In this document: piece after piece, positions 1,974 through 13,190 of the stretch
Position numbering within the stretch: position 1 is the stretch's first letter
How the letters are laid out: every line of letters begins with the position of its first letter
IMG/VR virus record: IMGVR_UViG_3300021142_000149
Span: 1 to 27,019 of that record
Reading direction: 5' to 3' (one strand)
Length of the DNA stretch: 27,019 nt
Source of the DNA: a virus
The notes under the pieces: model-generated
Told to the model about the DNA's origin: nothing
The model's input: the letters and a program-made list of their open reading frames with translations, nothing else
Database searches by the model: none
Made by a program: the position numbers and the translations under genes

Positions 1974-2002
1974 TTGACTGGTCACTTGTTTTCATGTACA
2001 AT
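1974..2002 (+). promoter_or_regulatory. Early sigma70 promoter P1
   Basis: TTGACT at 1974-1979, 17 bp, TACAAT at 1997-2002. Drives the 2033-3293 gene group. Confidence 0.8.
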
Positions 2003-2032
2003 TAAGACTTAATTAATGCAAAGGAGCGAACC

Positions 2033-3293: not shown

Positions 3294-3296
3294 GGG

Positions 3297-3325
3297 TTGA
3301 CAACGGTTGATTTTGGTAGTATAAT
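3297..3325 (+). promoter_or_regulatory. Early promoter P2
   Basis: TTGACA at 3297-3302, 17 bp, TATAAT at 3320-3325: a perfect sigma70 consensus just after the preceding stop. Drives the membrane protein at 3350. Confidence 0.9.
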
Positions 3326-3349
3326 GTAGTATAGTGAGAGGAGTGGCAG

Positions 3350-3565: not shown

Positions 3566-3586
3566 TTTAACATTAAGGAGCGAAAC

Positions 3587-3820
3587 TTGAAAACTATCAC
3601 TACACTTAGAAACGGCAATATCTATCAGATGGACATTACAGAAGCCATTGAGATCGTAGAAGCTTACAAAAGGGTCAACGGTCATCCTGGTATCTTAGAA
3701 GCGGTTATGGAGATGGGTGATCTAGTAGCACTAGATGAACTGCCTATCAAGCAGAAGGTTGCCTACAGACGCTTCATGCGAGATATGCAACAATTATTCG
3801 CACCCAAGGTTGACGCCTAG
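3587..3820 (+). CDS. Hypothetical 77-residue early protein
   Basis: Starts at a TTG placed right after AAGGAGCGAAAC, the standard early ribosome site, so I accept the rare start. The product begins MKTITTLRNGNIYQMDITEA and is predicted mainly helical, with charged ends. No Cys cluster or membrane segment. The middle (LEAVMEMGDLVALDELPIKQ) is acidic and the C-terminal third basic (KVAYRRFMRDMQQ), so a surface binding nucleic acid or a host protein is conceivable. Its stop TAG lies inside the spacer of promoter P4. Function unknown. Confidence 0.75.
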   Translation: MKTITTLRNGNIYQMDITEAIEIVEAYKRVNGHPGILEAVMEMGDLVALDELPIKQKVAYRRFMRDMQQLFAPKVDA

Positions 3821-3838
3821 TGATTTTGGTGCTATAAT
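3810..3838 (+). promoter_or_regulatory. Early promoter P4
   Basis: TTGACG at 3810-3815, 17 bp, TATAAT at 3833-3838. The upstream gene's stop is in the spacer. Confidence 0.85.
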
Positions 3839-3868
3839 ACATTTTTAACTAACTAAGGAGCGAAACTT

Positions 3869-4078
3869 ATGTCAGGTATCTACGATCAAGTACAGAATCC
3901 AATCCCAAAGACAGGCCTGTTTGCAACCCCAGAGAGCTACGAGCAGTTGATGGAATACTGCCAGCGATTCAATGGTAGCGAGCGCATGATCGCTATCACA
4001 GTGGCCACCATGGCCCTGAATCTAGCACATGAGCTGGTTGAGGAGCGGATCCTTTCTAAAGAAGTGTTCTGCGGTTGA
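3869..4078 (+). CDS. Hypothetical 69-residue early protein
   Basis: ATG directly after AAGGAGCGAAACTT. The product starts MSGIYDQVQNPIPKTGLFAT and becomes helical (ESYEQLMEYCQRF, then ITVATMALNLAHELVEERIL) with one Cys in the middle and one near the end. It is the size and style of single-domain host-takeover proteins, but no family is recognised. Its stop TGA is supplied by the -35 box of promoter P5 (TTGACA), so gene end and next promoter are fused. Confidence 0.75.
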   Translation: MSGIYDQVQNPIPKTGLFATPESYEQLMEYCQRFNGSERMIAITVATMALNLAHELVEERILSKEVFCG

Positions 4079-4103
4079 CATCTAGCCCGAAAGGGCTTAT
4101 AAT
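4075..4103 (+). promoter_or_regulatory. Early promoter P5 with hairpin spacer
   Basis: TTGACA at 4075-4080, 17 bp, TATAAT at 4098-4103. The spacer holds AGCCC-GAAA-GGGCT, a perfect 5-bp inverted repeat ending at the first base of the -10 region. The upstream stop TGA is within the -35 box. Confidence 0.9.
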
Positions 4104-4133
4104 TGACTTATAGTAGGTTAACAAGGAGCGAAG

Positions 4134-4475
4134 ATGGGTTACTTTACAGATACAGATTTTGATTCGACACTCGACATGATCGACTGTGTCAACGAGGTTG
4201 TAGAGCGCCATGTGCGCCGGATGGAACGATGCACACCAAACGAACTGGGCTTGGACATGCGCTGTGGCCCTGTCTACATTGACAGGGACGAGGAAGTGAT
4301 TGCTGTAAGCCACTCCAGTGCTATCGACTACTACGGTGGGTTCGAGTACATCAAAGAGGGTGAGGGCCGCATGGTCTGTGGTGACTACACTTTCTTCAAC
4401 ACAGAGTCAAGCCGTGTGCAAGACTGCTTTGACTACTTGAATGAAGCTAAAGAAGCAGAAGCTGAAGGGTTCTAA
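4134..4475 (+). CDS. Hypothetical 113-residue acidic early protein
   Basis: ATG after AAGGAGCGAAG. Very acidic, with five Cys and several Asp/Glu clusters (MGYFTDTDFDSTLDMIDCVN at the start, ending NEAKEAEAEGF). Helical N-terminal half, mixed strands around GPVYIDRDEEVIAVSHSS, and no membrane segment. Strongly acidic small proteins often mimic DNA in phages (for example to block host nucleases), but nothing specific supports that here. Transcribed alone from P5; P6 follows 23 bases after its stop. Confidence 0.75.
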   Translation: MGYFTDTDFDSTLDMIDCVNEVVERHVRRMERCTPNELGLDMRCGPVYIDRDEEVIAVSHSSAIDYYGGFEYIKEGEGRMVCGDYTFFNTESSRVQDCFDYLNEAKEAEAEGF

Positions 4476-4498
4476 TAACCCGTAGAACTGAAGGGGAT

Positions 4499-4527
4499 TT
4501 GACAGTCTGCTCGTTTGGCGCTATAAT
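4499..4527 (+). promoter_or_regulatory. Early promoter P6
   Basis: TTGACA at 4499-4504, 17 bp, TATAAT at 4522-4527. Drives the 23-residue gene at 4555. Confidence 0.85.
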
Positions 4528-4554
4528 AAAGACTTAGCAACAAAGGAGCAGACA

Positions 4555-4626
4555 ATGGAATGTACCTATTGCAGAAAGTGGCACTGGAAGGGATTTGAAG
4601 TTTGTAAAGACCGTCCAAAACAATAG
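4555..4626 (+). CDS. 23-residue Cys/His microprotein (mini zinc-knuckle-like)
   Basis: A very short gene with a complete early promoter and AAAGGAGCAGAC before its ATG, so it is very probably expressed. The product, MECTYCRKWHWKGFEVC plus KDRPKQ, has C3-X2-C6-X3-H10-X6-C17, a spacing that could hold one zinc ion like a shortened zinc knuckle. The rest is basic and aromatic, which would suit nucleic-acid or protein binding. This is inference from spacing alone. Promoter P7 starts 5 bases after its stop. Confidence 0.65.
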   Translation: MECTYCRKWHWKGFEVCKDRPKQ

Positions 4627-4630
4627 GTTA

Positions 4631-4659
4631 TTGACAGGTTAGGGTTCATGTGCTATAAT
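4631..4659 (+). promoter_or_regulatory. Early promoter P7 upstream of a gene-free stretch
   Basis: TTGACA at 4631-4636, 17 bp, TATAAT at 4654-4659. No gene follows for about 340 bases, so it probably makes a noncoding RNA. Confidence 0.85.
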
Positions 4660-4671
4660 AAGCACATGAAC
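4644..4671. repeat. Perfect 11-bp inverted repeat centred on the P7 -10 box
   Basis: GTTCATGTGCT at 4644-4654 is the exact reverse complement of AGCACATGAAC at 4661-4671. The 6 bases between are ATAATA, the core of the -10 box. This is a classic operator position for a dimeric repressor that would block RNA polymerase. Confidence 0.8.
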
Positions 4672-4880
4672 AGTTAGAAAAGCATTAAAGGTTACCTACA
4701 TCGCTAGGTACTTGGAGGGTTAGGACAGTAGCGACGGCTACGCTCAATCCAGGTACATGAAACAGGGCGTAAGCTCGGAGAAGCGGCGATAGTAAGTAGG
4801 CAGTAATAGCGAAGGCAGACGATCTAGTAGACGGTACTAGCGGCTAGTCCGGAGCCCCTTTAATTCTTCTCTAACTGTGC
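4665..4880 (+). ncRNA. Possible structured noncoding RNA from promoter P7
   Basis: After P7 there is no reading frame with a ribosome site for about 340 bases. The stretch has several local stems: ACCTA/TAGGT near 4693, GTAGC-GACG-GCTAC near 4728, CTAGTA-GACGG-TACTAG near 4825, and GGCT/AGCC followed by CCCTTTAATTCTTCT near 4842-4870, a weak terminator-like end. GGGC near 4765 could pair with GCCC near 4853 and close a larger domain. It matches no RNA family I know. The 3' end is uncertain. Confidence 0.4.
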
Positions 4881-4996
4881 AGTTACAGGGTGTTGGCCAG
4901 TGGGCTTAACATTAAACGAGGAGCACGCTCTGCCCGCCCAATCTAATTACTGTCGCTGGGGTCAAACGATGATAAGCTACCTTGTAGCATCCCCGG
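4881..4996. other. Noncoding stretch before P8 with a hairpin
   Basis: No convincing gene. GCTAC-CTT-GTAGC lies at about 4976-4988, flanked by GGGG and CCCC and followed directly by P8. GAGGAGC at 4918-4924 resembles a ribosome site but leads to no plausible frame. Confidence 0.4.
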
Positions 4997-5025
4997 TTGA
5001 CAGTAACTGGTTTTGGTTGTATAAT
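4997..5025 (+). promoter_or_regulatory. Early promoter P8
   Basis: TTGACA at 4997-5002, 17 bp, TATAAT at 5020-5025. Drives genes 5057-6067. Confidence 0.9.
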
Positions 5026-5056
5026 ATATTTTTAACAGTACACAAAGGAGCGAACG

Positions 5057-5545
5057 ATGGGTACACGAAGCATGATTGGTATTGAGAATCCCAACACAGG
5101 CGTTGTCAAAAGCGTCTACTGTCATTGGGACGGCTATCTACAGCACAATGGCTCAATCCTCAACAAACACTATACAGCAAGCCCTAAGGTCAACAACCTT
5201 ATTGCCTTGGGTGACTTGAGTAGCTTACGTCCAGAGATTGGCGAGAAGCACGCCTTTAGCCAGTTAGATCTGTGCGAAGCAGATCGCGAAGAATACGAAA
5301 AACAGCACGGCAACTCCTGCACATTTTACACACGCGATCGCGGTGAAACAGCGCCCTACAAGCGTTTTGACAATGCCAAGGCCGCTGTAGACTACTACGA
5401 TGGCAGCTGGTGCGAGTACTTCTATCTCTTCAAGTACGACGAGGATCAAGAGTCAGGCAAGTGGTACTTCCGTACACGAGAAAACGGTCGTTGGAAGCGT
5501 TTGAGCACAGCACTCAAGCAGTTCAAAGAAGACGAGGTGGCATAA
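5057..5545 (+). CDS. Conserved phage protein with N-terminal GTRSMIGIEN motif
   Basis: 162 residues, ATG after AAAGGAGCGAACG. The N-terminus (MGTRSMIGIENPNTGVVKSV, then YCHWDGYLQHNGSILNKHY and a LIALGDLSSLRPE stretch) follows a pattern I recognise from conserved proteins of unknown function in phages and plasmids. The C-terminal half is Tyr/Trp-rich and charged (YYDGSWCEYFYLFKYDED). It is soluble, with no membrane segment. It overlaps the next start by one base (TAATG), so translation is coupled. It is first in a three-gene unit that ends in a structured 3' region. Confidence 0.8.
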   Translation: MGTRSMIGIENPNTGVVKSVYCHWDGYLQHNGSILNKHYTASPKVNNLIALGDLSSLRPEIGEKHAFSQLDLCEADREEYEKQHGNSCTFYTRDRGETAPYKRFDNAKAAVDYYDGSWCEYFYLFKYDEDQESGKWYFRTRENGRWKRLSTALKQFKEDEVA

Positions 5546-5892
5546 TGACAGGCTTTCAAAGCAAGAAGGCCGCGGCCCAAGCCAAACTAGAGGCTCTTAG
5601 GGAGAGCCCTAGTCGTAGCGTCTCAGACGAGATTGAGATCAGCAGACTTGAAACACTTTTGATCGCAGGAGAAGGTATGAAAACAGTACGAGTTGAAACA
5701 CTACTAACACAAGAGCTTGAAGTTCCTGATACTTGGGAGCGTGAGGATGTATTAGACTTCTTAGCTGAATATCAATCATTCCGTACAGCCTTCCAGGGTG
5801 TATCAAATGAAGATCAAACAGCTCGCATCGTTGATCTAGGCGTAGTTACCGAAACAGTAACAGAAATGGGCGAGGAGGCCTTTGATGAGTAA
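5545..5892 (+). CDS. Hypothetical 115-residue acidic early protein
   Basis: The frame is open from 5410, but I start at the ATG at 5545 because it overlaps the previous stop and has GAGGTGG upstream. The first 44 residues are a charged helix (KKAAAQAKLEALRES), a likely coiled coil. The rest is acidic with a LAEYQSFRTAFQGVSNEDQT segment. A second in-frame ATG at 5677 has AGGAG ahead of it and could make a shorter 71-residue form lacking the coiled coil. It overlaps the next gene by 8 bases. Confidence 0.75.
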   Translation: MTGFQSKKAAAQAKLEALRESPSRSVSDEIEISRLETLLIAGEGMKTVRVETLLTQELEVPDTWEREDVLDFLAEYQSFRTAFQGVSNEDQTARIVDLGVVTETVTEMGEEAFDE

Positions 5893-6067
5893 GATGGCAG
5901 AATTAGACTTGTATTCATACGATATTGAACAGCTCTATATCGAAGGCTTGACTGAAAAGAACATTGCCAAGACCTTAGATGTACCTGTAGAGTACGTCTA
6001 CGCTTGGATGCAGTTAAATGGCATCGCTGAAGAAGAATTCAGCCCTAATGCTACCATAAACAGCTAG
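5885..6067 (+). CDS. Small helix-turn-helix-like protein
   Basis: 60 residues. The frame opens three bases earlier at a TTG, but I take the ATG at 5885 because GAGGAGG lies upstream. The segment IEQLYIEGLTEKNIAKTLDV followed by PVEYVYAWMQLNGI has the layout of a helix-turn-helix (helix, Gly-containing turn, recognition helix), as in many short T4-like phage proteins. DNA binding is therefore plausible but unproven. The stop codon itself is part of the CTAG stem that shows the anti-Shine-Dalgarno loop at 6068-6074. Confidence 0.75.
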   Translation: MSKMAELDLYSYDIEQLYIEGLTEKNIAKTLDVPVEYVYAWMQLNGIAEEEFSPNATINS

Positions 6068-6200
6068 TTCGCTCCTAGACATCGCTGAGGGACAAGTGCG
6101 TTCCTGTAGGGCTAGCCATAGGTTAGCGATTCATAAGGGACCCTACGAAACCTGCTGGTGAATGACGGTGCCACCTCACAAAACCACCCGTCCTTTCTTT
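6064..6200 (+). ncRNA. Candidate second anti-Shine-Dalgarno RNA (3'-UTR type)
   Basis: Directly after the gene ending at 6067, CTAG (6064-6067) and CTAG (6075-6078) can pair and expose TTCGCTC. TTCGCTCC (6068-6075) is the exact complement of the early ribosome site GGAGCGAA. Next come a hairpin GTAGGG (6106-6111)/CCCTAC (6141-6146) enclosing GCTAGCC-ATA-GGTTAGC, and a terminator at 6164-6200. The parts match the candidate sRNA at 13057 in a different order. No separate promoter is seen, so it would come from the P8 transcript by processing or act as its 3' end. Confidence 0.45.
6164..6200 (+). terminator. Probable terminator before P9
   Basis: GACGGTG at 6164-6170 pairs with CACCCGTC at 6185-6192 (one bulged C) around a 14-base loop, followed by CTTTCTTT. 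Moderate strength. Confidence 0.6.
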
Positions 6201-6202
6201 GG

Positions 6203-6231
6203 TTGACACTCTCACCAAAATCTGCTATACT
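6203..6231 (+). promoter_or_regulatory. Early promoter P9
   Basis: TTGACA at 6203-6208, 17 bp, TATACT at 6226-6231, right after the terminator at 6164. Drives genes 6255-6637. Confidence 0.85.
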
Positions 6232-6254
6232 AATGACATAGTAAGGAGAGCGAG

Positions 6255-6395
6255 ATGAAGATTGTTGTAAAAGTGCCACAGAAAACACGAGCACATCTTG
6301 TGCTTTTCTGTGCGAATACGCCCTTCAAGCAGAAGCGTGTAGAGAGCAAGATCAAGTATAAACGCCAACCCAAACACAAAGGACGCGAGCAATGA
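6255..6395 (+). CDS. 46-residue basic early protein
   Basis: A short gene behind P9 with AAGGAGAGCGAG before the ATG, an altered form of the standard early site. The product (MKIVVKVPQKTRAHLVLFCA, then NTPFKQKRVESKIKYKRQPKH and KGREQ) is a strand-like start followed by a strongly basic tail. It resembles small basic proteins seen in T4-like phages of cyanobacteria and other aquatic hosts. Binding nucleic acid is likely from charge alone. It overlaps the next start by 4 bases (ATGA). Confidence 0.75.
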   Translation: MKIVVKVPQKTRAHLVLFCANTPFKQKRVESKIKYKRQPKHKGREQ

Positions 6396-6637
6396 AAGGC
6401 CTAATCACCAACGAATGGGATCGTGACAACCTAGAGTTCCTACTCAACACCAAGGGTGACGAGTTCAAGGCTTGGTTCGCACAGGCAGATGAGGACGACA
6501 AGGCCTATGCCCAGGAACTGATGGATGCCTATAGCCTAGAGCTCAAACTCCGTGCGGAAGAGCTGGAGATTGAAGCACGCCTAGACAATACCCGTGAAGC
6601 TGATCAGGTTATTAGCCAGTTCAGGTTGACGAAGTGA
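6392..6637 (+). CDS. Hypothetical 81-residue acidic helical protein
   Basis: Begins in the stop of the previous gene (ATGA), with AAAGGA about 10 bases upstream. The product is almost fully helical and acidic (NLEFLLNTKGDEFKAWFAQA, then YAQELMDAYSLELKLRAEEL), with heptad-like Leu spacing in the second half, so it may form a coiled coil. The pairing of a basic 46-mer with an acidic helical protein in one transcript suggests they may bind each other; that is inference. Its last codons and stop lie in promoter P10. Confidence 0.75.
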   Translation: MKGLITNEWDRDNLEFLLNTKGDEFKAWFAQADEDDKAYAQELMDAYSLELKLRAEELEIEARLDNTREADQVISQFRLTK

Positions 6638-6654
6638 GCATTTGGCAGTATAAT
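6626..6654 (+). promoter_or_regulatory. Early promoter P10
   Basis: TTGACG at 6626-6631, 17 bp, TATAAT at 6649-6654. The upstream stop TGA is in the spacer. Drives genes 6687-8006. Confidence 0.85.
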
Positions 6655-6686
6655 TAACACTTAATTAACAATAAGGAGCGAAACTT

Positions 6687-6953
6687 ATGAACATAGCGAC
6701 ACTAGAGCAGTATGTAGAGAACAAGAACAAATGGCGTGCCGTATTCAACCAAAAGCCTTTGAGCCTGTTGAACGCTAAGGATCGCCAGGCCATCGCTGAC
6801 AGCATTGACAGCGGAATGAGCCCAGAGAACCTTACCTGCGATGGCGAACTGCCTCGCTCAGTGGTTCAACTCAAAATGCGTAACCTTACTCGCTGTGCAG
6901 AAGAATTACTCAGCATTGATCCTTCAGTAACCTTTTACGAAATGGGAGTCTAA
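6687..6953 (+). CDS. Hypothetical 88-residue early protein
   Basis: ATG directly after AAGGAGCGAAACTT. A helical protein (MNIATLEQYVENKNKWRAVF, then LNAKDRQAIADSIDSGMSPE), with 'DSGMSPENLTCDGELPRSV' as a likely loop and two Cys. Residues 28-48 look like a turn between two helices, but not a clear DNA-binding motif. It is one base away from the Api92-like gene and is co-transcribed with it. Confidence 0.75.
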   Translation: MNIATLEQYVENKNKWRAVFNQKPLSLLNAKDRQAIADSIDSGMSPENLTCDGELPRSVVQLKMRNLTRCAEELLSIDPSVTFYEMGV

Positions 6954-6954
6954 T

Positions 6955-7608
6955 ATGCCTAATTGGTGCAATAACTATCTTGAACTCACACACGACAACC
7001 CAGAGATGATCACCCGTGCAAGGAAGGCTTTTGCAGATGGTCGTCTACTAGATGAATTCTGCCCAGTGCCCAAGGATCTGCATATCGTAGCAGGCCGAGT
7101 AGGTAGTGATGAAGACCCTGCCCAGATTGAGCTAGAAGCCCAAGAGAAGCGTAACCTCGAGACACACGGCTACTCTACTTGGTATGACTTCTGCGTTAAT
7201 GAATGGGGCACCAAGTGGGATGTAGGCGGTGATGACTACAATCCTGCAGATGACACAGACCCTAACCATACCCGTATGAGCTTTGATTCAGCCTGGGCAC
7301 CTCCTGTGCCTGCCATGGAGAAGTTCATGGATCAAGGCTTCAGAGTCAAGTTGATCTACTGGGAGTCGGGCATGTGCTTCTGCGGTCTCTTTGATGAGAA
7401 CGGCGATGACTACTACGAATATACAGATATGTCAGTGGATGAGCTGGCTGAATGTATCAACCCTGAGATCGACGAGTGCATGAACATCACTGAAAGCATC
7501 CGCGAATGGGAAGAAGACAACGCAGAAGAACTAGATGAAACTCCACATGAGTTTGCTACTCCGGGATCATTTACAATAGAAGAAGGCTTGAAAAAAGATG
7601 AAGACTAA
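6955..7608 (+). CDS. Api92-like protein with ferredoxin-like fold (DUF1281 type)
   Basis: 217 residues with GGGAG six bases before the ATG. The N-terminus MPNWCNNYLELTHDNPEMI, the central WGTKWDVGGDD, the FDSAWAPPVPAM motif and a following LIYWESGMCFCGLF stretch are hallmarks of the Api92-like/DUF1281 family found in phages and plasmids. The function of that family is unknown. The C-terminal 70 residues are very acidic and look like an added tail. It overlaps the short gene at 7598 by 11 bases. Confidence 0.85.
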   Translation: MPNWCNNYLELTHDNPEMITRARKAFADGRLLDEFCPVPKDLHIVAGRVGSDEDPAQIELEAQEKRNLETHGYSTWYDFCVNEWGTKWDVGGDDYNPADDTDPNHTRMSFDSAWAPPVPAMEKFMDQGFRVKLIYWESGMCFCGLFDENGDDYYEYTDMSVDELAECINPEIDECMNITESIREWEEDNAEELDETPHEFATPGSFTIEEGLKKDED

Positions 7609-7738
7609 CAAAGAAAAGAACCTAGAGCATGATGCTAGGCAGCAGGCGAGGGTTCGCCCTCAGCCTAAGGAGTATAATTGGGAACCATTAGAGGCTGTAA
7701 TCCAGCAATGGAAAGCGAGGGCTCATGAGCAAACTTGA
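7598..7738 (+). CDS. 46-residue hypothetical protein overlapping both neighbours
   Basis: A short frame, MKTNKEKNLEHDARQQARVR then PQPKEYNWEPLEAVIQQWKARAHEQT, that overlaps the previous gene by 11 bases and the next by 14. It is basic and helical, with a Trp-containing C-terminal helix. AAGG lies about 12 bases before the ATG, a little far. The composition is protein-like and the overlaps fit phage packing, so I think it is real, though a chance frame is not excluded. Confidence 0.55.
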   Translation: MKTNKEKNLEHDARQQARVRPQPKEYNWEPLEAVIQQWKARAHEQT

Positions 7739-8006
7739 GTTCTACAGCCGCCCGCTAGTGGCATTTGATCCTGCTAAGAAGGAACATCGTAGGATCTTCA
7801 ACGAGTTCGAAACCAAAAGAACTTGGGGTCATAGCCCGTATCGATTCATTTGCCCTGAAGATGTTGGGCACGATTTACCGGCTATGATCAAGAATCAATT
7901 GCTGGATTGGTATTTGGACAAGGAATTTGGTCAGCCCGTAGCGGTAGAAACAGCTCGAAAAGATGTCCAAAAGATCAAAAGATTGGTTGACAAGCAGAAG
8001 GTTTGA
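7725..8006 (+). CDS. Hypothetical 93-residue T4-like phage protein
   Basis: ATG after GCGAGGGCTC. The sequence (SKLEFYSRPLVAFDPAKKEH, then TWGHSPYRFICPEDVGHDLP and MIKNQLLDWYLDKEFG) follows a pattern I have seen in small proteins of T4-like phages from aquatic bacteria. The function is not known to me. The C-terminal 20 residues are Lys/Arg-rich (ARKDVQKIKRLVDKQKV). Its stop TGA falls in the spacer of promoter P11. Confidence 0.75.
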   Translation: MSKLEFYSRPLVAFDPAKKEHRRIFNEFETKRTWGHSPYRFICPEDVGHDLPAMIKNQLLDWYLDKEFGQPVAVETARKDVQKIKRLVDKQKV

Positions 8007-8015
8007 GTATACAAT
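7987..8015 (+). promoter_or_regulatory. Early promoter P11
   Basis: TTGACA at 7987-7992, 17 bp, TACAAT at 8010-8015. The upstream stop lies in the spacer. Drives the gene at 8073. Confidence 0.8.
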
Positions 8016-8021
8016 AGACTT

Positions 8022-8050
8022 ATGCGTTAGAGATAATGCATTCATTTTTT
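8022..8050 (+). promoter_or_regulatory. Stem-loop at the extreme 5' end of the P11 mRNA
   Basis: ATGCGTTA at 8022-8029 pairs with TAATGCAT at 8034-8041 (one G-U pair) around the GNRA tetraloop GAGA. Transcription from P11 should start near 8021-8023, so the mRNA would begin with this stem. TCATTTTTT follows, so partial termination is also possible. Such 5'-end stems are known to protect mRNAs (E. coli ompA). Confidence 0.6.
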
Positions 8051-8072
8051 AACACACACAGAAGGAAGTAAA

Positions 8073-8423
8073 ATGGCTACAGATAAATTGTTTAAAGTTT
8101 TTGGTGTTTCTAAACTTGATGGCGAGTACAAAGTTCGCTTTGCCAATGACATCATGCGCACTAAGGTCTTGGCTAAACACGGTCACACTGACATTGAGTT
8201 GGTAGAGCTTTCAGAAGCAGTTACCAAGTACGAGGGTATCAAGACAATCCAGTCTTTGCCTGAGTTCTCAAACGCCAATGCACAGTCAGCTATCGCTGAG
8301 TACTTGGAAGAAAAGGCTCCTAAGGCATCTAAGCCTGCGGCTAAGGGTGTAATGAAGCCTGCTAAGGCTGTCAAAGCACCCGCTAAGGTTGCTGTAACAG
8401 AGGACGAAGACGCTCCTTTCTAA
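8073..8423 (+). CDS. 116-residue protein with SSB-like disordered linker and acidic tip
   Basis: ATG after AGAAGGAAGTAAA, not the standard early site. Residues 1-78 are a small globular region (LFKVFGVSKLDGEYKVRFAN). Residues 81-106 are an Ala/Lys/Pro linker (KAPKASKPAAKGVMKPAKAV). The end is TEDEDAPF. A flexible linker plus an acidic tip ending Pro-Phe is the layout of bacterial SSB C-termini (DDDIPF in E. coli), which recruit many host repair proteins. The N-terminal part does not look like an SSB OB-fold to me. It has its own promoter and a 5' stem-loop, so it may be abundant. Confidence 0.75.
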   Translation: MATDKLFKVFGVSKLDGEYKVRFANDIMRTKVLAKHGHTDIELVELSEAVTKYEGIKTIQSLPEFSNANAQSAIAEYLEEKAPKASKPAAKGVMKPAKAVKAPAKVAVTEDEDAPF

Positions 8424-8426
8424 GCT

Positions 8427-8609
8427 ATGTTCATCCAGTATGAAGTCTGGTACACACTCGACGGGCATGAAGAGCTCCTAGAGTGTGTGGCCACTAAGAA
8501 AGAAGCCGACCGATTGGTTATGGAGTCTTTAGAGTTTTATAATGAGATGTGGATCATCGAAGATATGGACGGTGAGACCAAAGAAATAAGTAGATTTAAG
8601 GGCCTATAG
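8427..8609 (+). CDS. Hypothetical 60-residue protein overlapping a tRNA start
   Basis: Starts 3 bases after the previous stop with no clear Shine-Dalgarno, so translation probably continues from the 8073 gene. A compact beta/alpha pattern: FIQYEVWYTLDGHEELLECV, then KKEADRLVMESLEFYNEMW and IIEDMDGETKEISRFKGL. Its last 10 bases are the first 10 of the tRNA-Arg fragment, and its stop TAG is tRNA positions 8-10. The endonuclease gene at 8667 ends in exactly the same way in tRNA-Met. Confidence 0.7.
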   Translation: MFIQYEVWYTLDGHEELLECVATKKEADRLVMESLEFYNEMWIIEDMDGETKEISRFKGL

Positions 8610-8638
8610 CTCAGTTGGTTAGAGCAGAGGACTCCTAC
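8600..8638 (+). pseudogene. 5' part of a disrupted tRNA-Arg(CCU)
   Basis: Acceptor strand GGGCCTA (8600-8606), T8 A9, D-arm GCTC-AGTTGGTTA-GAGC, A26, anticodon-stem strand GAGGA (8627-8631) and loop CTCCTAC with anticodon CCT at 8634-8636. After position 37/38 the sequence leaves the tRNA: no strand pairing with GAGGA follows. Instead the last nine bases pair with the ribosome site of the endonuclease gene. A matching 3' part with perfect acceptor pairing is at 9355-9377. Confidence 0.75.
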
Positions 8639-8660
8639 AGACTAAATAGTGTGTAGGAGT
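8631..8660 (+). promoter_or_regulatory. Hairpin masking the endonuclease ribosome site
   Basis: ACTCCTACA (8631-8639, the tRNA anticodon region) is the perfect complement of TGTAGGAGT (8652-8660), which contains the AGGAG ribosome site of the gene at 8667. It is followed by ATTTTTAT. Folded, it would hide the ribosome site and could also terminate transcription. In T4, early transcripts of I-TevI hide its ribosome site in the same manner. Confidence 0.65.
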
Positions 8661-8666
8661 ATTTTT

Positions 8667-9281
8667 ATGATTTGTCAGTTCTGTAATAGAGTAGCCAAGA
8701 GTCTCAATTCTAATCGTCAACATGAAATTAGATGTAAATCTAATCCTGCCGTTATAGCAGTCAAACCTTCCTATGGTATGCTTGGTAAGAAAGGTGCTAA
8801 CCAATATACCTACGGTGCCATCATGTTAGATAGTACCAAACAAAAGATTAGCAAGGCATCTACCGATTACAACAATACTCGATGGAGCGATCCGGACAAT
8901 CGACTTCGACAGTCAATAGCAATGAAAAAAGCCGTTGATCGTAACCCAGAAGCCTATTCAAGCTCGAACAGAGGCAGAACCAAACAGATTATCATAGACG
9001 GAATTAAACTACAAGGTCAATGGGAAGTTGACTTTTATCTATGGGCCAAGGCTCAAGGATTAGAACCAACAAGACCGACTGAATCATTTGAGTATAATTG
9101 GAATGGAGTTAGATCGTACTTTCCTGATTTCTATATCAAATCACAGGATCTCTATATTGAAGTTAAAGGTTATGAAACTGAAAGAGATCGTGCCAAATGG
9201 CGTGACTTTCCCAAGAATCTGCGTATAATAAAGGAAGCAGAGATAAAACAAATACGACAAGGATGTTTTGTAGGCCTTTAG
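8667..9281 (+). CDS. Homing-endonuclease-like protein, zinc finger plus PD-(D/E)XK
   Basis: 204 residues. The frame opens at 8649, but I take the ATG at 8667 because AGGAG sits 7 bases upstream. N-terminal zinc finger C3-X2-C6-X12-H19-X3-C23, then a basic middle (RLRQSIAMKKAVDRNPEAYS). A C-terminal nuclease core has E120, P153-D154 in YFPDFYI and E165-V-K167 in LYIEVKG, fitting PD-(D/E)XK; I-Ssp6803I, which lives in a cyanobacterial tRNA gene, has this fold. It lies between two pieces of one tRNA-Arg, so tRNA DNA is its likely target. Its last 10 bases are the start of tRNA-Met. Confidence 0.8.
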   Translation: MICQFCNRVAKSLNSNRQHEIRCKSNPAVIAVKPSYGMLGKKGANQYTYGAIMLDSTKQKISKASTDYNNTRWSDPDNRLRQSIAMKKAVDRNPEAYSSSNRGRTKQIIIDGIKLQGQWEVDFYLWAKAQGLEPTRPTESFEYNWNGVRSYFPDFYIKSQDLYIEVKGYETERDRAKWRDFPKNLRIIKEAEIKQIRQGCFVGL

Positions 9282-9354
9282 CATAATTGGTTAGTGCCGC
9301 AAACTCATAATTTGTACTGTTCCAGTTCGAGTCTGGAAGGGCCTACAAAACATC
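9262..9354. repeat. 15-bp inverted repeat enclosing tRNA-Met
   Basis: GATGTTTTGTAGGCC at 9262-9276 is the exact reverse complement of GGCCTACAAAACATC at 9340-9354. It extends the tRNA-Met acceptor stem by ten further base pairs. Its right edge is exactly where the tRNA-Arg 3' fragment begins. Confidence 0.85.
9272..9345 (+). tRNA. tRNA-Met (anticodon CAU)
   Basis: A complete cloverleaf of 74 nt. Acceptor AGGCCTT/AGGGCCT (one G-U), T8 A9, D-arm GCAT...GTGC, anticodon arm GCAAA-CTCATAA-TTTGT with CAT at 34-36, variable loop ACTGT, T-arm TCCAG-TTCGAGT-CTGGA, discriminator A. No CCA is encoded, so it must be added. The CAU anticodon could also be tRNA-Ile2 if modified by TilS. The D-arm ATAATTGGTTAGTGC is normal. 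The acceptor continues into an unusual extended stem outside the tRNA. It overlaps the end of the endonuclease gene by 10 bases. Confidence 0.88.
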
Positions 9355-9377
9355 TTTAAATCCAGGTGGGCCCACCA
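9355..9377 (+). pseudogene. 3' part of the disrupted tRNA-Arg
   Basis: TTTAAAT T-loop (normally TTCAAAT), T-stem strand CCAGG, acceptor TGGGCCC that pairs fully with GGGCCTA at 8600-8606 (one G-U), A73 and an encoded CCA at 9375-9377. Positions 38-53 of the tRNA are absent, so the two parts cannot make a normal tRNA by simple splicing. Confidence 0.7.
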
Positions 9378-9381
9378 TGAT

Positions 9382-9414
9382 AAAGACCCTACTAACCCTA
9401 GGGTCTTTCCTTTT
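9382..9414 (+). terminator. Strong terminator after the tRNA region
   Basis: AAAGACCCTA (9382-9391) pairs perfectly with TAGGGTCTTT (9399-9408), followed by CCTTTT. P12 starts 3 bases later. Confidence 0.9.
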
Positions 9415-9416
9415 GG

Positions 9417-9445
9417 TTGACAGCTAGCCCGTTTCCTAGTATACT
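9417..9445 (+). promoter_or_regulatory. Early promoter P12
   Basis: TTGACA at 9417-9422, 17 bp, TATACT at 9440-9445. Confidence 0.85.
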
Positions 9446-9470
9446 ATGTTTTTATTTAGAAGGAGCGACG

Positions 9471-9800
9471 ATGTTAACAGTTAAAGACATTACTAAAGAC
9501 GATGACAGTACTACTACACACTACACACTGAACGAGCAGGTAGTCTTAGCAGGCGACAGCATTTGGGACTGTACACTTAAAGAAGTTACAGTTACAGACA
9601 TTGTAGTTACAGAGTTTGAAGACTACAAGAGCATTAATGTATACTACGACGTTGACGGCGTAGAGGGTACAGAAGTAGAAGACAGCTGGACTATGTACAC
9701 AGACACAGGCTTTGAAGAGGCCATTAGTGAGCTGTTAGGCTATGACGTTAGCTTTACAGAGCAGGGAATGCAAGAGGACGGCATAGCTAGCATGGAGTAA
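9471..9800 (+). CDS. Hypothetical 109-residue acidic early protein
   Basis: The frame opens upstream at the promoter, but the ATG at 9471 follows AAGGAGCGACG and is downstream of the predicted transcript start, so I use it. The product is strongly acidic and rich in Thr, Val and Asp, with alternating patterns (TLKEVTVTDIVVTEFEDYKS, then INVYYDVDGVEGTEVEDSW) that suggest an all-beta fold. No Cys pairs, membrane segment or family. DNA mimicry is a possibility from charge only. P13 starts 9 bases after its stop. Confidence 0.75.
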   Translation: MLTVKDITKDDDSTTTHYTLNEQVVLAGDSIWDCTLKEVTVTDIVVTEFEDYKSINVYYDVDGVEGTEVEDSWTMYTDTGFEEAISELLGYDVSFTEQGMQEDGIASME

Positions 9801-9804
9801 GCAG

Positions 9805-9827
9805 GGGGGTTGACAAGACCCCCTTTT
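9805..9827 (+). terminator. Terminator overlapping the -35 box of P13
   Basis: GGGGGT (9805-9810) pairs with ACCCCC (9818-9823), followed by TTTTG. The loop TGACAAG contains most of the P13 -35 box, so one short element ends the upstream RNA and starts the next. Confidence 0.7.
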
Positions 9828-9838
9828 GAGTGTACAAT
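9810..9838 (+). promoter_or_regulatory. Early promoter P13
   Basis: TTGACA at 9810-9815, 17 bp, TACAAT at 9833-9838. The -35 box is in the loop of the terminator hairpin. Confidence 0.85.
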
Positions 9839-9867
9839 ATACACATACTGAGAGATTAGGAGCGAAA

Positions 9868-10071
9868 ATGGTTATAGATCGTGTACATGGCGGATGCTAT
9901 GATAGAGGTAGTGCAGACAGCTACTACCGTCGGCCACCAAAGCCACACAAGTACCCTAACGGTACCTACAATGGCGAAGCAGTAACAGACCTTACTGCCG
10001 AAGAAGTAGCCGCTTATATGCAGGGCTACATGGACAACGAGCAGTTGGGTGATTTTAAAGACTGGGGTTGA
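9868..10071 (+). CDS. Conserved 67-residue 'YDRGSADSYY' phage protein
   Basis: The ATG at 9868 follows TTAGGAGCGAAA; the longer frame from 9826 would start inside the promoter. The core HGGCYDRGSADSYYRRPPKP and the end MQGYMDNEQLGDFKDWG follow a pattern I recognise from small proteins common in large T4-like phages and some bacterial phages. Its role is unknown. Tyr-, Gly- and Pro-rich first half, helical second half. The stop TGA is part of the -35 box of P14. Confidence 0.8.
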   Translation: MVIDRVHGGCYDRGSADSYYRRPPKPHKYPNGTYNGEAVTDLTAEEVAAYMQGYMDNEQLGDFKDWG

Positions 10072-10096
10072 CACTTCGGGCTTTTGGGCTTATAAT
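10068..10096 (+). promoter_or_regulatory. Early promoter P14
   Basis: TTGACA at 10068-10073, 17 bp, TATAAT at 10091-10096. The upstream stop TGA is inside the -35 box. Confidence 0.9.
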
Positions 10097-10128
10097 AGCT
10101 TTATACAGTTAATTAATAGGAGCGAACC

Positions 10129-10365
10129 ATGTTAGTTAGAGATCTCATAGAATTGCTAGAAGGCTACGATGCGGACTTAGAAGTCCACTTTGCATACAAC
10201 TACGGGGACCACTGGCGCACCCAAGTAGCACCCAGCGTGGACAGCGTGGATATGGGCATTGTCGAGTACAGCGACTACCACCGCATGCCTAAGGTTGTAG
10301 AAGTGGACGACGACGAGGAAGAAGCGGACGAAGTTACTGGCAAACCAGTAGTCTTGCTAGGTTGA
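10129..10365 (+). CDS. Hypothetical 78-residue acidic early protein
   Basis: ATG after AGGAGCGAACC. It starts with a helix MLVRDLIELLEGYDADLEVH typical of small phage proteins that begin 'xxxLIxLLxxxxPDxEV', then a strand region and a very acidic stretch (VEVDDDEEEADEV). The first half resembles a short family in phages and plasmids, but I cannot name it. Its stop TGA is supplied by the -35 box of P15. Confidence 0.75.
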   Translation: MLVRDLIELLEGYDADLEVHFAYNYGDHWRTQVAPSVDSVDMGIVEYSDYHRMPKVVEVDDDEEEADEVTGKPVVLLG

Positions 10366-10390
10366 CGGTTTGGCTAGAACTTGCTATAAT
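10362..10390 (+). promoter_or_regulatory. Early promoter P15
   Basis: TTGACG at 10362-10367, 17 bp, TATAAT at 10385-10390. Upstream stop TGA in the -35 box. Confidence 0.88.
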
Positions 10391-10424
10391 ATACACATAC
10401 ACTAACAAATAAGGAGCGAAACTT

Positions 10425-10643
10425 ATGAAAACAGCAACTCAACTCAAAGACATGCAAGGTAAAGAGATCAAGGTAGGCGATCGTGTAGCAATGGTCAGCT
10501 GGCACAATGCTGGCAGTCTTGTTATTGGGGTAGTTGAGAAGCTAGGCACTGTTCGTGCTCAAGTTCGCCCTGTAAAGGCCAGCTTCACTAACATCGACCC
10601 TACAGTGGCTAGCATCGGTTCAACTGATTTAATTAAACTCTAA
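10425..10643 (+). CDS. 72-residue protein, possible small SH3-like barrel
   Basis: ATG directly after AAGGAGCGAAACTT. The segment GKEIKVGDRVAMVSWHNAGS, then LVIGVVEKLGTVRAQVRPVK, shows the 'I-x-V-G-D-x-V' beginning and strand spacing of small SH3-like or KOW-like barrels, which often bind RNA, DNA or RNA polymerase. The fold call is by eye. Mildly basic, no Cys. It is transcribed alone between P15 and P16. Confidence 0.75.
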   Translation: MKTATQLKDMQGKEIKVGDRVAMVSWHNAGSLVIGVVEKLGTVRAQVRPVKASFTNIDPTVASIGSTDLIKL

Positions 10644-10645
10644 GG

Positions 10646-10674
10646 TTGACAACTGAGCCAAAAGGCCGTATAAT
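10646..10674 (+). promoter_or_regulatory. Early promoter P16
   Basis: TTGACA at 10646-10651, 17 bp, TATAAT at 10669-10674. Spacer contains GCC-AAAA-GGC. The last 12 spacer bases are the same as in P17. Confidence 0.9.
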
Positions 10675-10704
10675 AGACTTATAGTTAGATAAAAGGAGCG
10701 AACC

Positions 10705-11025
10705 ATGTTACAAGAATTAGATACTAAAGAAGCAGGCATCTTTGCATTCGCGGCGGCTATTGATGCTGATCGTCGCAATTCAAACAACAAGAGCCACTAC
10801 TCACAAGAGCAGATTCGTAGAGCGTTATCAGTGCGTGATCTAATCGACACAGCCTTTACCTACTCTAAGCTCTATATCAACTATCGCAAGAAGTTCATAG
10901 CAGTCAAAGCAGAAGGTGCTCGCCGTAAAGATCAGTTGGCTAGAGAAGTCCTCGACCTGTTTACCGCTAACGGCTACAGTGTTGTTAGTACGCCACAGGG
11001 TATGATCGTCAGGCTTGACAAGTAA
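10705..11025 (+). CDS. Hypothetical 106-residue basic early protein
   Basis: ATG after AAAGGAGCGAACC. Helical, with a basic centre (SHYSQEQIRRALSVRDLIDT, then LYINYRKKFIAVKAEGARRK) and a strand-like C-terminus (GYSVVSTPQGMIVRLDK). The charge pattern would suit nucleic-acid binding, but there is no known motif. The -35 box of P17 is in its last codons and the stop is in the P17 spacer. Confidence 0.75.
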   Translation: MLQELDTKEAGIFAFAAAIDADRRNSNNKSHYSQEQIRRALSVRDLIDTAFTYSKLYINYRKKFIAVKAEGARRKDQLAREVLDLFTANGYSVVSTPQGMIVRLDK

Positions 11026-11043
11026 GCCAAAAGGCCGTATAAT
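11015..11043 (+). promoter_or_regulatory. Early promoter P17
   Basis: TTGACA at 11015-11020, 17 bp, TATAAT at 11038-11043. Spacer ends GCCAAAAGGCCG as in P16, although the coding context differs. Confidence 0.9.
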
Positions 11044-11074
11044 AGCTGTATAAGTTAATTAATTGGAGCGAGCA

Positions 11075-11437
11075 ATGAAATTACATATCGTTACGCAATA
11101 CATGGAAAACTACGGTGCCCACGATTGGGACGGTCTAGGTGCTTGCCCCCAGCATTGGAAGTTCAAAGGTGGTGAGGACTATTTCTATCAGTTGGGTGCC
11201 CAAGAGCCTAGCGCCGAGCACATCGAAGAGTTGATCCAGGTGCTCCGTACCCGCATTGAGTGGGATGATGTTGGTAGCCGTCAGTATATCACAGGCTACG
11301 GCATCGTAGAGGACTCATTCATGACTCCGTTCGAAAAGAGCCAGCTGGAGTATGAAGGAAGCATCGCATACCCTGCAGTCATGCTCTTGCCCTTAGCAGA
11401 AGTAGAGCCAGATGGCTTTGTCTGCGAGTTCATTTAG
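11075..11437 (+). CDS. Conserved phage protein with ENYGAHDWDG motif
   Basis: The ATG at 11075 follows TTGGAGCGAGCA; the longer frame from a TTG at 11063 would start inside that site. The N-terminus MKLHIVTQYMENYGAHDWDG, then CPQHWKFKGGEDYFY, follows a motif that I recall from small phage and plasmid proteins of unknown function. It has two Cys, several Trp and a C-terminal strand region (YPAVMLLPLAEVEPDGFVCEF). P18 starts 3 bases after the stop. Confidence 0.78.
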   Translation: MKLHIVTQYMENYGAHDWDGLGACPQHWKFKGGEDYFYQLGAQEPSAEHIEELIQVLRTRIEWDDVGSRQYITGYGIVEDSFMTPFEKSQLEYEGSIAYPAVMLLPLAEVEPDGFVCEFI

Positions 11438-11440
11438 GGC

Positions 11441-11469
11441 TTGACAGCCAGCCCACTAGGCGCTATAAT
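11441..11469 (+). promoter_or_regulatory. Early promoter P18
   Basis: TTGACA at 11441-11446, 17 bp, TATAAT at 11464-11469. Spacer has GCC-CACTA-GGC. Confidence 0.9.
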
Positions 11470-11502
11470 TATTAGACATTAAACACTTAAGGAGCGAAAC
11501 TT

Positions 11503-11730
11503 ATGTCACCACAGCAAAAAGCAGTCTTATTCCTCAACGCAGGCCTGATCATGTTGCTAGGCTCAGTAGGCGGAGTCGAGCAGTCAGTGGATCTACTTAC
11601 ATACGACGGTCTATATCTATTTGCATTCACTTTGATCGGCTTGGCATTCCTAGCCCTGGGCGCAAGATATGCCAATTCTGGCACTGAAGAAACCATGCGT
11701 AAACTGGTTGACAATCCCACACTTAGATAA
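11503..11730 (+). CDS. 75-residue two-pass inner membrane protein
   Basis: ATG after AAGGAGCGAAACTT. Hydrophobic stretches at about residues 6-25 (KAVLFLNAGLIMLLGSVGGV) and 36-57 (GLYLFAFTLIGLAFLALGAR) predict a hairpin of two membrane helices, with the basic C-terminus in the cytoplasm. It is a candidate for altering the host membrane early in infection, for example superinfection exclusion, but this rests on topology only. The -35 box and most of the spacer of P19 lie in its last codons. Confidence 0.8.
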   Translation: MSPQQKAVLFLNAGLIMLLGSVGGVEQSVDLLTYDGLYLFAFTLIGLAFLALGARYANSGTEETMRKLVDNPTLR

Positions 11731-11736
11731 TATAAT
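11708..11736 (+). promoter_or_regulatory. Early promoter P19
   Basis: TTGACA at 11708-11713, 17 bp, TATAAT at 11731-11736, with the upstream TAA just before the -10 box. Confidence 0.88.
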
Positions 11737-11768
11737 ATTGTTTTAACGTTAACAAAAGGAGCGAACTT

Positions 11769-12092
11769 ATGTTAGTAACAGCAGAATTGATCCGTGCAGG
11801 TAAGCGAGTAGCAGAGCAAGCAGGTCGTGACATGTACGCCAAGGTAGGCGAGCGTGATGCTTGTGGTTTTGGTTGGGTTGAGGTCTATGTAGATCGCACA
11901 AACTCAGCCCAGGCAAAAGAGTTGATTGCCGCAGGTTTCCGCAAGGACTACAAACCAAAGTGCTTGAGCATGTGGGATCCAGCAGGCATTCCTACACAGA
12001 GCATTTCAGTCAAAGAAGCAGGGGCCTATGCCTATGCTGACTACTTGACCAAGTTGGGACTCAAGGCCTACGGCGGCAGCCGAATGGATTGA
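11769..12092 (+). CDS. Hypothetical 107-residue early protein
   Basis: ATG after AAAGGAGCGAACTT. Helical N-terminus (AELIRAGKRVAEQAGRDMYA), a central DACGFGWVEVYVDRTNSAQA strand-helix unit and a second helix with Tyr/Ala repeats (EAGAYAYADYLTKLGLKAYG). It is similar in style to small T4-like phage proteins with a repeated AAGF/GLKAYG pattern. Function unknown. The stop TGA is in the -35 box of P20. Confidence 0.75.
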   Translation: MLVTAELIRAGKRVAEQAGRDMYAKVGERDACGFGWVEVYVDRTNSAQAKELIAAGFRKDYKPKCLSMWDPAGIPTQSISVKEAGAYAYADYLTKLGLKAYGGSRMD

Positions 12093-12117
12093 CATCAAGG
12101 GGGAAACCCCTTATAAT
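12089..12117 (+). promoter_or_regulatory. Early promoter P20 with hairpin spacer
   Basis: TTGACA at 12089-12094, 17 bp, TATAAT at 12112-12117. AAGGGG-GAAA-CCCCTT (12097-12112) fills the spacer as a perfect 6-bp inverted repeat with a GAAA loop. Confidence 0.9.
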
Positions 12118-12149
12118 TAATACTTTCCAACAGCGTATAAGGAGCGACA

Positions 12150-13043
12150 ATGGTATCAGTAGTTAACAGTTCAAAGATGATGATGGCCTTACAGAAACAA
12201 CCAAAAGCCAAGGTATCAAGCCTTGAAGTAGAACCCGTAAAGAAAGACATTGCACACGAGAGTGATGAGTCAATTCTCAATAGACTCCGCGATCGCTTTG
12301 AGATCTTAGATGACATGACCCGTGCTGTCAAGCGTGGTGATGTGCGAGCTATGATCGTAACAGGCCCTCCAGGCGTAGGTAAATCCTTTGGTGTAGAGAA
12401 AGTACTCTCAAAGCATGATGTGTTTGCTGATATCGCAGACGACAAGAAGCTGAAGAAGTACGAAGTAGTCAAAGGTGCTATGAGTGCCATTGGCCTGTAC
12501 TCAAAGCTCTATGAGTACTCAGACAAGAAGTCAATCCTAGTGTTTGATGACTGCGACTCTGTACTGTTAGATGATCTAAGTTTGAACATCCTAAAGGCAG
12601 CATTGGATACATCAAAGAAGCGTATGATCCATTGGAACACTGACAGTCGCTTGCTACGTAGTGAAGGTGTGCCCAACTCATTCGAGTTCAAAGGCGGTGC
12701 TATCTTTATTACCAACATCAAGTTCGATCACGTTAAGAGCAAGAAGCTACAGGATCACTTGGAAGCACTAGAAAGCCGTTGCCACTACTTAGACTTGACT
12801 ATCGACACAGAGCGTGAGAAGGTCTTGCGCATCAAGCAGGTAGTAACAGAGCATGGCATGTTGGACAGCTACGAGCTTAGTGATGAGCGCAAGCTAGAAG
12901 TAGTTGAGTTCGTAGATGCCAACAAGCATCGCATGCGTGAGCTGAGCTTGCGTACTGTGCTCAAGGTAGCAGACTTGGCAGCCAGCATGCCCGACAAGTG
13001 GCAAGCTGTAGCAGAAGTTACATGTATGCGCGGCACTCGCTAG
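12150..13043 (+). CDS. AAA-family ATPase of T4-like phage type
   Basis: 297 residues, ATG after AAGGAGCGACA. An N-terminal tail of about 40 residues is followed by an AAA core: Walker A GPPGVGKS at 72-79, Walker B ILVFDDCD at 129-136, a sensor-1 Asn in IFITNIKF at about 189, and an Arg in LESRCHYLDL at about 210 that could be the arginine finger. It is therefore an active-looking ATPase that probably forms rings. Similar AAA proteins are frequent in early regions of T4-like phages. The substrate cannot be told. It is the last gene of the early block, and the candidate sRNA follows it directly. Confidence 0.85.
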   Translation: MVSVVNSSKMMMALQKQPKAKVSSLEVEPVKKDIAHESDESILNRLRDRFEILDDMTRAVKRGDVRAMIVTGPPGVGKSFGVEKVLSKHDVFADIADDKKLKKYEVVKGAMSAIGLYSKLYEYSDKKSILVFDDCDSVLLDDLSLNILKAALDTSKKRMIHWNTDSRLLRSEGVPNSFEFKGGAIFITNIKFDHVKSKKLQDHLEALESRCHYLDLTIDTEREKVLRIKQVVTEHGMLDSYELSDERKLEVVEFVDANKHRMRELSLRTVLKVADLAASMPDKWQAVAEVTCMRGTR

Positions 13044-13056: not shown

Positions 13057-13190
13057 GTAGGGGCATACTACTACGAGAATAAGCCCCTACAGGAGAACAG
13101 CTGACGTGATTCGCTCCCACTAGGTTGTTCGGCAGTGTGTCCCCTGACTCATAATTCCGATTCGCTCCCGGTTGGTCAGGGGATTTTTTT
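13057..13190 (+). ncRNA. Candidate anti-Shine-Dalgarno small RNA
   Basis: About 134 nt, three stems. SL1 is GTAGGGGC (13057-13064)/GCCCCTAC (13083-13090). SL2 is GTG-ATTCGCTCC-CAC (13106-13120), probably inside a weaker outer stem ACAGCTGACG/CGGCAGTGT. SL3 is CCG-ATTCGCTCC-CGG (13157-13171) inside the terminator stem. The 9-base loop is identical in SL2 and SL3 while the closing pairs differ but still match. TTCGCTCC is complementary to the early ribosome site GGAGCGAA. No reading frame is seen in it. Confidence 0.7.
13140..13190 (+). terminator. Strong terminator carrying an anti-Shine-Dalgarno loop
   Basis: TCCCCTGAC (13140-13148) pairs perfectly with GTCAGGGGA (13175-13183), followed by seven T's. 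The 26-base loop holds the nested hairpin with ATTCGCTCC. Confidence 0.92.

Follow-up and report, generated by a model that had tools for sequence, protein, structure and literature searches.

Hairpin loops behind the early genes of uncultured phages match a tag shared by early ribosome-binding sites and may form an RNA brake on early protein synthesis

The window, that is, the whole stretch of DNA analysed here, corresponds to a viral record 27,019 bases long. Short plus-strand genes, most of them with near-perfect sigma-70 promoters, cluster at approximately 2,000–13,040, and minus-strand genes, including those for a DnaB-like helicase and a carbamoyltransferase, predominate from approximately 13,900. 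The label "early" is used here on the basis of the sigma-70 promoters and the gene order. The final early gene encodes an AAA ATPase and has GGAGCGAC as its own ribosome site (12141–12147); the hairpins that are the subject of this study lie directly 3′ of it (Table 1). A perfect minus-strand sigma-70 promoter (1940–1912) borders the early genes on the left and faces away from them. A perfect extended sigma-70 promoter at 4631–4659 is followed by approximately 330 nt, to position 4990, that lack an obvious gene and have a predicted fold of −75 kcal/mol (z −1.3). The stretch may encode a long non-coding RNA, for which Rfam gave no match, and part of it recurs in locus L006, immediately upstream of an anti-tag hairpin of the kind described below. 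The stretch 8601–9346 holds a tRNA-like 5′ half (GGCCTATAGCTCAGTTGGTTAGAGC...), an ORF of 210 amino acids (8649–9281) with a weak DUF7487 match and a complete tRNA-Met (9272–9346), in this order; an endonuclease-like gene may have inserted here and split a tRNA gene.

Table 1. Hairpins, tagged ribosome sites and associated features of the window (positions in the window).
Feature	Position	Strand	Remarks
Target site GGAGCGAA	2023..2030	+	gene at 2033; predicted pairing −13.1 kcal/mol
Target site GGAGCGAA	3577..3584	+	gene at 3587
Target site GGAGCGAA	3857..3864	+	gene at 3869
Target site GGAGCGAA	4125..4132	+	gene at 4134
Target site GGAGCGAA	5047..5054	+	gene at 5057
Third antisense element, CTAG-TTCGCTC-CTAG hairpin	6064..6078	+	immediately 3′ of the stop codon of an operon
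Target site GGAGCGAA	6675..6682	+	gene at 6687
Target site GGAGCGA(C)	9462..9468	+	gene at 9471; predicted pairing −12.3 kcal/mol
Target site GGAGCGAA	9859..9866	+	gene at 9868
Target site GGAGCGAA	10119..10126	+	gene at 10129
Target site GGAGCGAA	10413..10420	+	gene at 10425
Target site GGAGCGAA	10695..10702	+	gene at 10705
Target site GGAGCGA(G)	11065..11071	+	gene at 11075; predicted pairing −12.6 kcal/mol
Target site GGAGCGAA	11491..11498	+	gene at 11503
Target site GGAGCGAA	11758..11765	+	gene at 11769
Perfect sigma-70 promoter (12089–12117) and tagged site of the AAA gene	12089..12147	+	nearest promoter for the candidate RNA
Target site GGAGCGA(C)	12141..12147	+	AAA gene at 12150; predicted pairing −12.3 kcal/mol
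AAA ATPase gene, relative of T4-type nrdC.10	12150..13043	+	3′ UTR bears both loops
SL1, GTAGGGGC/GCCCCTAC	13057..13090	+	13057–13064 pairs with 13083–13090
SL2, outer stem GAACAGCT/GGTTGTTC, 3-bp GTG/CAC, 9-nt loop ATTCGCTCC	13095..13130	+	
SL3, intrinsic terminator, TCCCCTGAC/GTCAGGGGA, CCG/CGG, loop ATTCGCTCC, T7	13140..13190	+	

The three stems, the 9-bp terminator stem and the T7 run reported in the initial annotation are all present, in position and sequence alike, and the predicted minimum-energy fold of the region consists of exactly SL1, SL2 and SL3 (−51.6 kcal/mol, z −2.0). SL2 and SL3 display the same open loop ATTCGCTCC (13109–13117 and 13160–13168, respectively) on differing stems, and the sequence confirms that the identical loops are closed by different pairs, GTG/CAC and CCG/CGG. 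Both loops were more than 93% unpaired in the ensemble prediction. The SL3 hairpin proper (13140–13183) has a perfect 9-bp stem, is followed by the T7 run at 13184–13190 and gave an R1 match of 70.6 bits. The position of SL1 is in relatives taken by a different hairpin or by none. A search of Rfam returned no covariance-model match to any family, even at E up to 5. A third antisense copy, overlooked in the initial annotation, was detected at 6068–6075 in the middle of the early region. The CTAG-TTCGCTC-CTAG hairpin that carries it was also found in loci L003, L004 (position 5864), L012, L033 (6133) and L062 (2629), in surroundings that differ between the phages. The stretch 6030–6200 as one folded RNA was no better than its shuffles, and only the small hairpin is retained as a lead.

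Eight of the loop bases, TTCGCTCC, are the exact complement of GGAGCGAA. The two words occur 15 times in the window versus 0.36 times expected from shuffles, as 12 copies of GGAGCGAA preceding starts and three antisense copies, namely the two loops and 6068–6075. GGAGCGAA precedes 12 of the 19 first early genes and GGAGCGA three further ones (9462, 11065 and 12141), and the earlier count of 12 + 3 of 19 holds. The AAA gene is itself among the tagged genes, and feedback on its own mRNA is possible. Predicted pairing between the loop and the starts had a median of −13.1 kcal/mol for the 19 first genes versus −6.0 kcal/mol for 10 internal genes and −3.8 kcal/mol for 10 minus-strand starts, the gene lists having been typed by hand from the sequence and the ORF table. 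The pairing of a tagged site with the 16S tail was predicted at −7.6 kcal/mol. Beyond GGAG, the next four bases are unable to pair with the 3′ end of 16S rRNA, and their conservation therefore requires another reason. Across all loop-carrying loci, GGAGCGA was found at 429 of 728 promoter-led GGAG starts (59%), and GGAG starts without a promoter continued with CGA in 7%; among distant relatives without that loop, none of 134 promoter-led GGAG sites read GGAGCGA. The large contigs have GGAGCGAA concentrated upstream of the RNA and on its strand.

The AAA protein served as the query in IMG/VR for relatives of the window, of which the 80 closest were fetched (74–90% identity, contigs up to 383 kb). 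TCGCTCC was found at most 170 nt after the AAA gene in all 80, and twice, with a spacing of 43–84 nt, in 77. The loop read ATTCGCTCC in 153 of 159 copies and AATCGCTCC in the other 6. The closing pairs differed among the relatives (GTG/CAC, CCG/CGG, CTG/CAG, GCG/CGC and TTG/CAA), as did the outer stems, and an SL2-type first loop was present on different stems in 77 of the 80. An alignment of 18 SL3 sequences that was not fitted to the structure had 93.0% of its cells paired and a covariation of 0.611, versus 0.169 when shuffled and at most 0.133 when slid. The model-based alignment of 61 distinct rows, which was fitted to the structure and is hence biased that way, had 97.9% of cells paired and 13 of 14 pairs changed on both sides, all ten outer pairs included, with a covariation score of 0.611 versus 0.140 shuffled and at most 0.103 slid. 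An invariant loop on freely changing stems indicates that function resides in the loop, which has to stay unpaired.

Viral contigs contain the pattern CCGATTCGCTCCCGG in at least 120 stretches, of which some are chance matches within genes. Some phages have a one-loop form approximately 600–930 nt 3′ of the AAA gene, followed by a separate terminator. A second anti-tag RNA locus exists in some phages (L006 at 2212, L035 at 4281–4316, L179 and L280), and has in the latter three two or three loops and a place after a different gene, whose protein ends in GYKAKALGITL in L035. Other copies of ATTCGCTCC in six large contigs are not hairpins; they are reverse complements of the start sites of other genes, or chance. 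Every record of the cultured-phage collection had less than 60% identity in the AAA protein, no carrier of the element was found in that collection, and a distant search of cultured phages with the RNA yielded nothing better than E of 1. In the nearest cultured relatives, PA5oct and Vibrio D479, TCGCTCC is absent near the AAA gene. Bacterial genomes, searched for a hint of the host, revealed no encoded relative.

The more distant relatives seemed at first to be without the element, except for three loci with both tag and loop, until similar hairpins with other loops were found downstream of the AAA gene. One large lineage has the loop GGTTGGCTCC and promoter-led early sites of the form GGAGCCA(ACC), the commonest extended site, GGAGCCAACC, being a 10-base perfect complement of the loop. 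Another lineage has the loop TCTAGCTCC together with the site GGAGCTAG or GGAGC(N)TAG. The anti-tag words of the other lineages are GGUUGGCUCC or UCUAGCUCC, and in other lineages the hairpin is separate from the terminator. Lineages without a hairpin have no shared tag.

The joint change of loop and tag was assessed in 298 distinct loci, with the 1.1 kb after the AAA gene as the downstream region. Where GGAGCGA was the dominant tag, TCGCTCC was found downstream in 87 of 87 loci, and the case of relatives that keep GGAGCGAA and are without the loops, raised in the initial annotation, did not occur among them. Where the dominant tag was GGAGCCA, TGGCTCC was found in 29 of 31 loci and TCGCTCC in none of the 31. 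When any NNNCTCC word in a stable hairpin was sought, only three words occurred in at least four loci, and for each of them the corresponding tag was enriched, by a factor of about 9 to 37 (0.60 versus 0.046, 0.60 versus 0.016 and 0.18 versus 0.020). Loop class equalled site class in 180 of 182 classifiable loci (106/60/14 concordant, 2 discordant), with loop classes partly defined by searching for the predicted word. For clusters of the AAA protein, 51 of 52 were concordant, and the maximum in 10,000 shuffles was 45. Phylogeny is the main caution on this concordance, as there are few independent switches on well-supported branches (CGA 1, CCA 3 and CTA about 2, nearly all in the same direction), too few for significance of a sign test on the tree alone. 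Among comparative lines of evidence, the co-variation of loop and tag is the decisive one for pairing. The structure, its conservation, the invariant loop, its exact complementarity to the tag and the change of both together are documented here. The invariance of the loop on co-varying stems, the association of tag and loop, their switching together in other lineages and the predicted energies support the initial proposals that the loops pair with the shared early ribosome site and that this pairing accounts for the conservation of CGAA.

The TCTAGCTCC class departs from the many-gene pattern. Its matching site is at a single gene, the first of the AAA operon, approximately 250–290 nt before the AAA gene (for example in L432, L295 and L426), and this one-target form is possibly an ancestor or a remnant of the many-gene system. 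Eight classifiable loci with the TCTAGCTCC loop have no exact GGAGCTA site, some of them bearing GGAGC(N)TAG. Locus L434 is an exception with the loop ATTCGCTCC on a TCTAGCTCC-type stem, AGGAGCTCAC as the first site of the operon and no GGAGCGA found; it is perhaps a recent switch or a recombinant. A fourth code with the loop TGAACCTCC and the site GGAGGTT was seen in the single locus L165, with the hairpin 27–34 nt after the AAA gene, and is not claimed.

A promoter of the RNA's own was sought in the 150 nt before loop 1 in 78 loci, and no excess over shuffles was detected; the same scan scored the early genes mostly with 0–1 mismatches. The RNA of 130 nt proposed in the initial annotation would therefore be a 3′ fragment of an early mRNA, and action in cis or from the 3′ UTR becomes possible. 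The candidate RNA probably represents the terminal portion of early mRNAs, whether it works in place or after release by cleavage. Transcription from the AAA-gene promoter would end in two stable hairpins displaying ATTCGCTCC, and read-through from other early promoters may reach the same end. The eight loop bases TTCGCTCC would pair with the GGAGCGAA tag at most promoter-proximal early genes. As this pairing spans the GGAG core, with a predicted strength above that of the pairing between the core and 16S rRNA, ribosome loading on tagged mRNAs would fall, and the natural interpretation is ribosome occlusion, as in NfeR1 (PMC10746234) and RNAIII (PMC2837412). We infer that the RNA is made and stable, acts in trans, may be freed as a small RNA and represses, and also when it does so. 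Its build-up would lower ribosome loading on every tagged early mRNA, that of the AAA gene included, and untagged genes, both downstream operon genes and those on the other strand, would escape. The early genes are co-directional, so the amount of the 3′ end would report the extent of early transcription, and early protein synthesis would be switched off by a self-timed process with no protein repressor involved. We put at roughly three in four the probability that an RNA formed by the 3′ terminus of early transcripts pairs with the Shine-Dalgarno sites of early genes, blocks ribosomes and shuts off early synthesis.

The strongest competitor is action in cis only, by which the loop in the 3′ UTR would pair with the tagged 5′ site of its own transcript, as feedback confined to a single operon, and the tag elsewhere would stem from overlapping transcripts or common descent of the leader. 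The RNA without its own promoter, the TCTAGCTCC class with its match at just the first gene of the AAA operon, and the tagged site of the AAA gene itself in 62 loci of the window clade would all suit this explanation, which we nevertheless regard as unlikely: in the same clade 471 of 804 other promoter-led starts are tagged, and the GGTTGGCTCC class has 113 of 175 other starts tagged and the AAA gene's own site untagged. Moreover, the majority of tagged genes have promoters of their own and are located as much as 11 kb upstream, and two loops per RNA, together with the extra antisense hairpins elsewhere, fit action in trans. Pairing could also be real and not repressive, with early mRNAs protected or activated, or with tagged mRNAs serving as a sponge that spares, for example, host mRNAs. 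Pairing alone does not fix the direction of an effect, and some phage small RNAs compete with host RNAs (PMC12197685). This is nonetheless improbable in view of a paired stretch that spans the GGAG core and is predicted to be more stable than the 16S rRNA pairing, and of the repression exerted by the anti-Shine-Dalgarno loops of alpha-r14 and RNAIII (PMC10746234, PMC2837412).

Two further explanations dispense with pairing altogether. If the loop were a protein-binding hairpin and its match to the early sites incidental, the conservation of the loop A and the closing G-C pair, which exceeds the requirements of pairing with GGAGCGAA, would be accounted for; the change of loop and site together as exact complements in three lineages would not, which leaves this explanation very little room. 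That the region is an ordinary terminator, its loop due to chance or duplication, agrees with SL3 being an intrinsic terminator with T7, and is the least credible of all. The two stems are unrelated but carry the same loop, an arrangement retained by 77 of 80 relatives, and this loop is complementary to the early tag; other lineages have the hairpin apart from the terminator, and the 87 tagged loci out of 87 carry this loop and not random terminator loops.

The hairpins offer a concrete RNA candidate for the shut-off of early protein synthesis in large phages without a RegA-like protein. The contigs studied are metagenomic and often incomplete, and the evidence is comparative throughout; within this frame, the system of loop and tag is a feature of many uncultured phages, most of them large, in which the hairpins close the early region, and it points to an RNA brake built into these phages that would turn off early protein synthesis. 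No earlier description was found in a literature search with thin coverage of subscription journals, and the passages that a keyword search identified in a review of phage small RNAs contain no regulator of a whole early gene set (PMC12197685). We lean slightly towards the broader view that this is an RNA-only regulon, in a large lineage of uncultured phages, with a short address tag in the ribosome-binding site of each early gene and a multi-loop anti-tag RNA where the early region ends, in which the codes of the lineages change jointly and possibly prevent cross-silencing by co-infecting phages. The system would be a natural case of one regulator RNA co-evolving with its whole set of targets, in at least three tag/anti-tag codes, and would explain the conservation of four bases beside the Shine-Dalgarno core that do not aid ribosome binding. 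The candidate RNA is open to a two-sided test by changing the loop from TTCGCTCC to TTGGCTCC, the tag from GGAGCGAA to GGAGCCAA, or both. The tag code could also help to place phage contigs from metagenomes in their lineages and to predict which of their genes are early.

The T4 protein RegA (PF01818) is a repressor that lowers the translation of many early genes at their initiation sites. It is the closest known system in role, RegA being a protein and the candidate here an RNA. RegA was detected in none of seven large records of the group, which are possibly fragments, and the same model finds RegA in Acj9. The c4 antisense RNA of P1 and P7 is encoded together with its target ant in the immunity region, whereas the present element follows an AAA ATPase gene where the early genes end. 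Both have sequences complementary to a phage ribosome-binding site, those of c4 pairing at the site of ant and probably lying in loops, but c4 has one target, the antirepressor, and controls immunity (PMC12197685), and is not the centre of a tag regulon of many early genes in a large genome. RNAIII of Staphylococcus aureus masks the Shine-Dalgarno sites of several mRNAs with C-rich loops and blocks initiation (PMC2837412), and the phage loops are likewise complementary to such sites. RNAIII, however, acts on mRNAs of bacterial virulence factors through imperfect duplexes and loop-loop contacts, with cleavage by RNase III, and its targets share a G-rich signature (PMC2837412) and not a dedicated tag of 8–10 bases that changes with the loop.

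The closest structural parallel is alpha-r14, or "cuckoo", of alphaproteobacteria, to which NfeR1 belongs. These RNAs of approximately 120–150 nt pair with the translation starts of several mRNAs, NfeR1 silencing ntrBC, and like the phage element they have several hairpins that expose an identical unpaired anti-Shine-Dalgarno motif on differing stems (PMC10746234). Their motif CCUCCUCCC, against which the phage loop was tested as AUUCGCUCC, targets the general Shine-Dalgarno consensus of cellular mRNAs (PMC10746234); the phage loop differs from it and matches a phage-specific tag of 8–10 bases that is common to early genes and changes together with the loop. Alpha-r14 RNAs have a regulated promoter of their own (PMC10746234), whereas none was found for the phage RNA at the 3′ end of an early gene. 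By motif, promoter, targets and the lack of an Rfam match, the phage element is not a member of this family. In its place at the end of an mRNA, finishing in a terminator, it resembles the small RNAs derived from 3′ UTRs such as CisR, which comes from prtV. CisR is of bacterial origin and targets a phage mRNA (PMC13250501), whereas here a phage RNA would act on many mRNAs of the phage itself.
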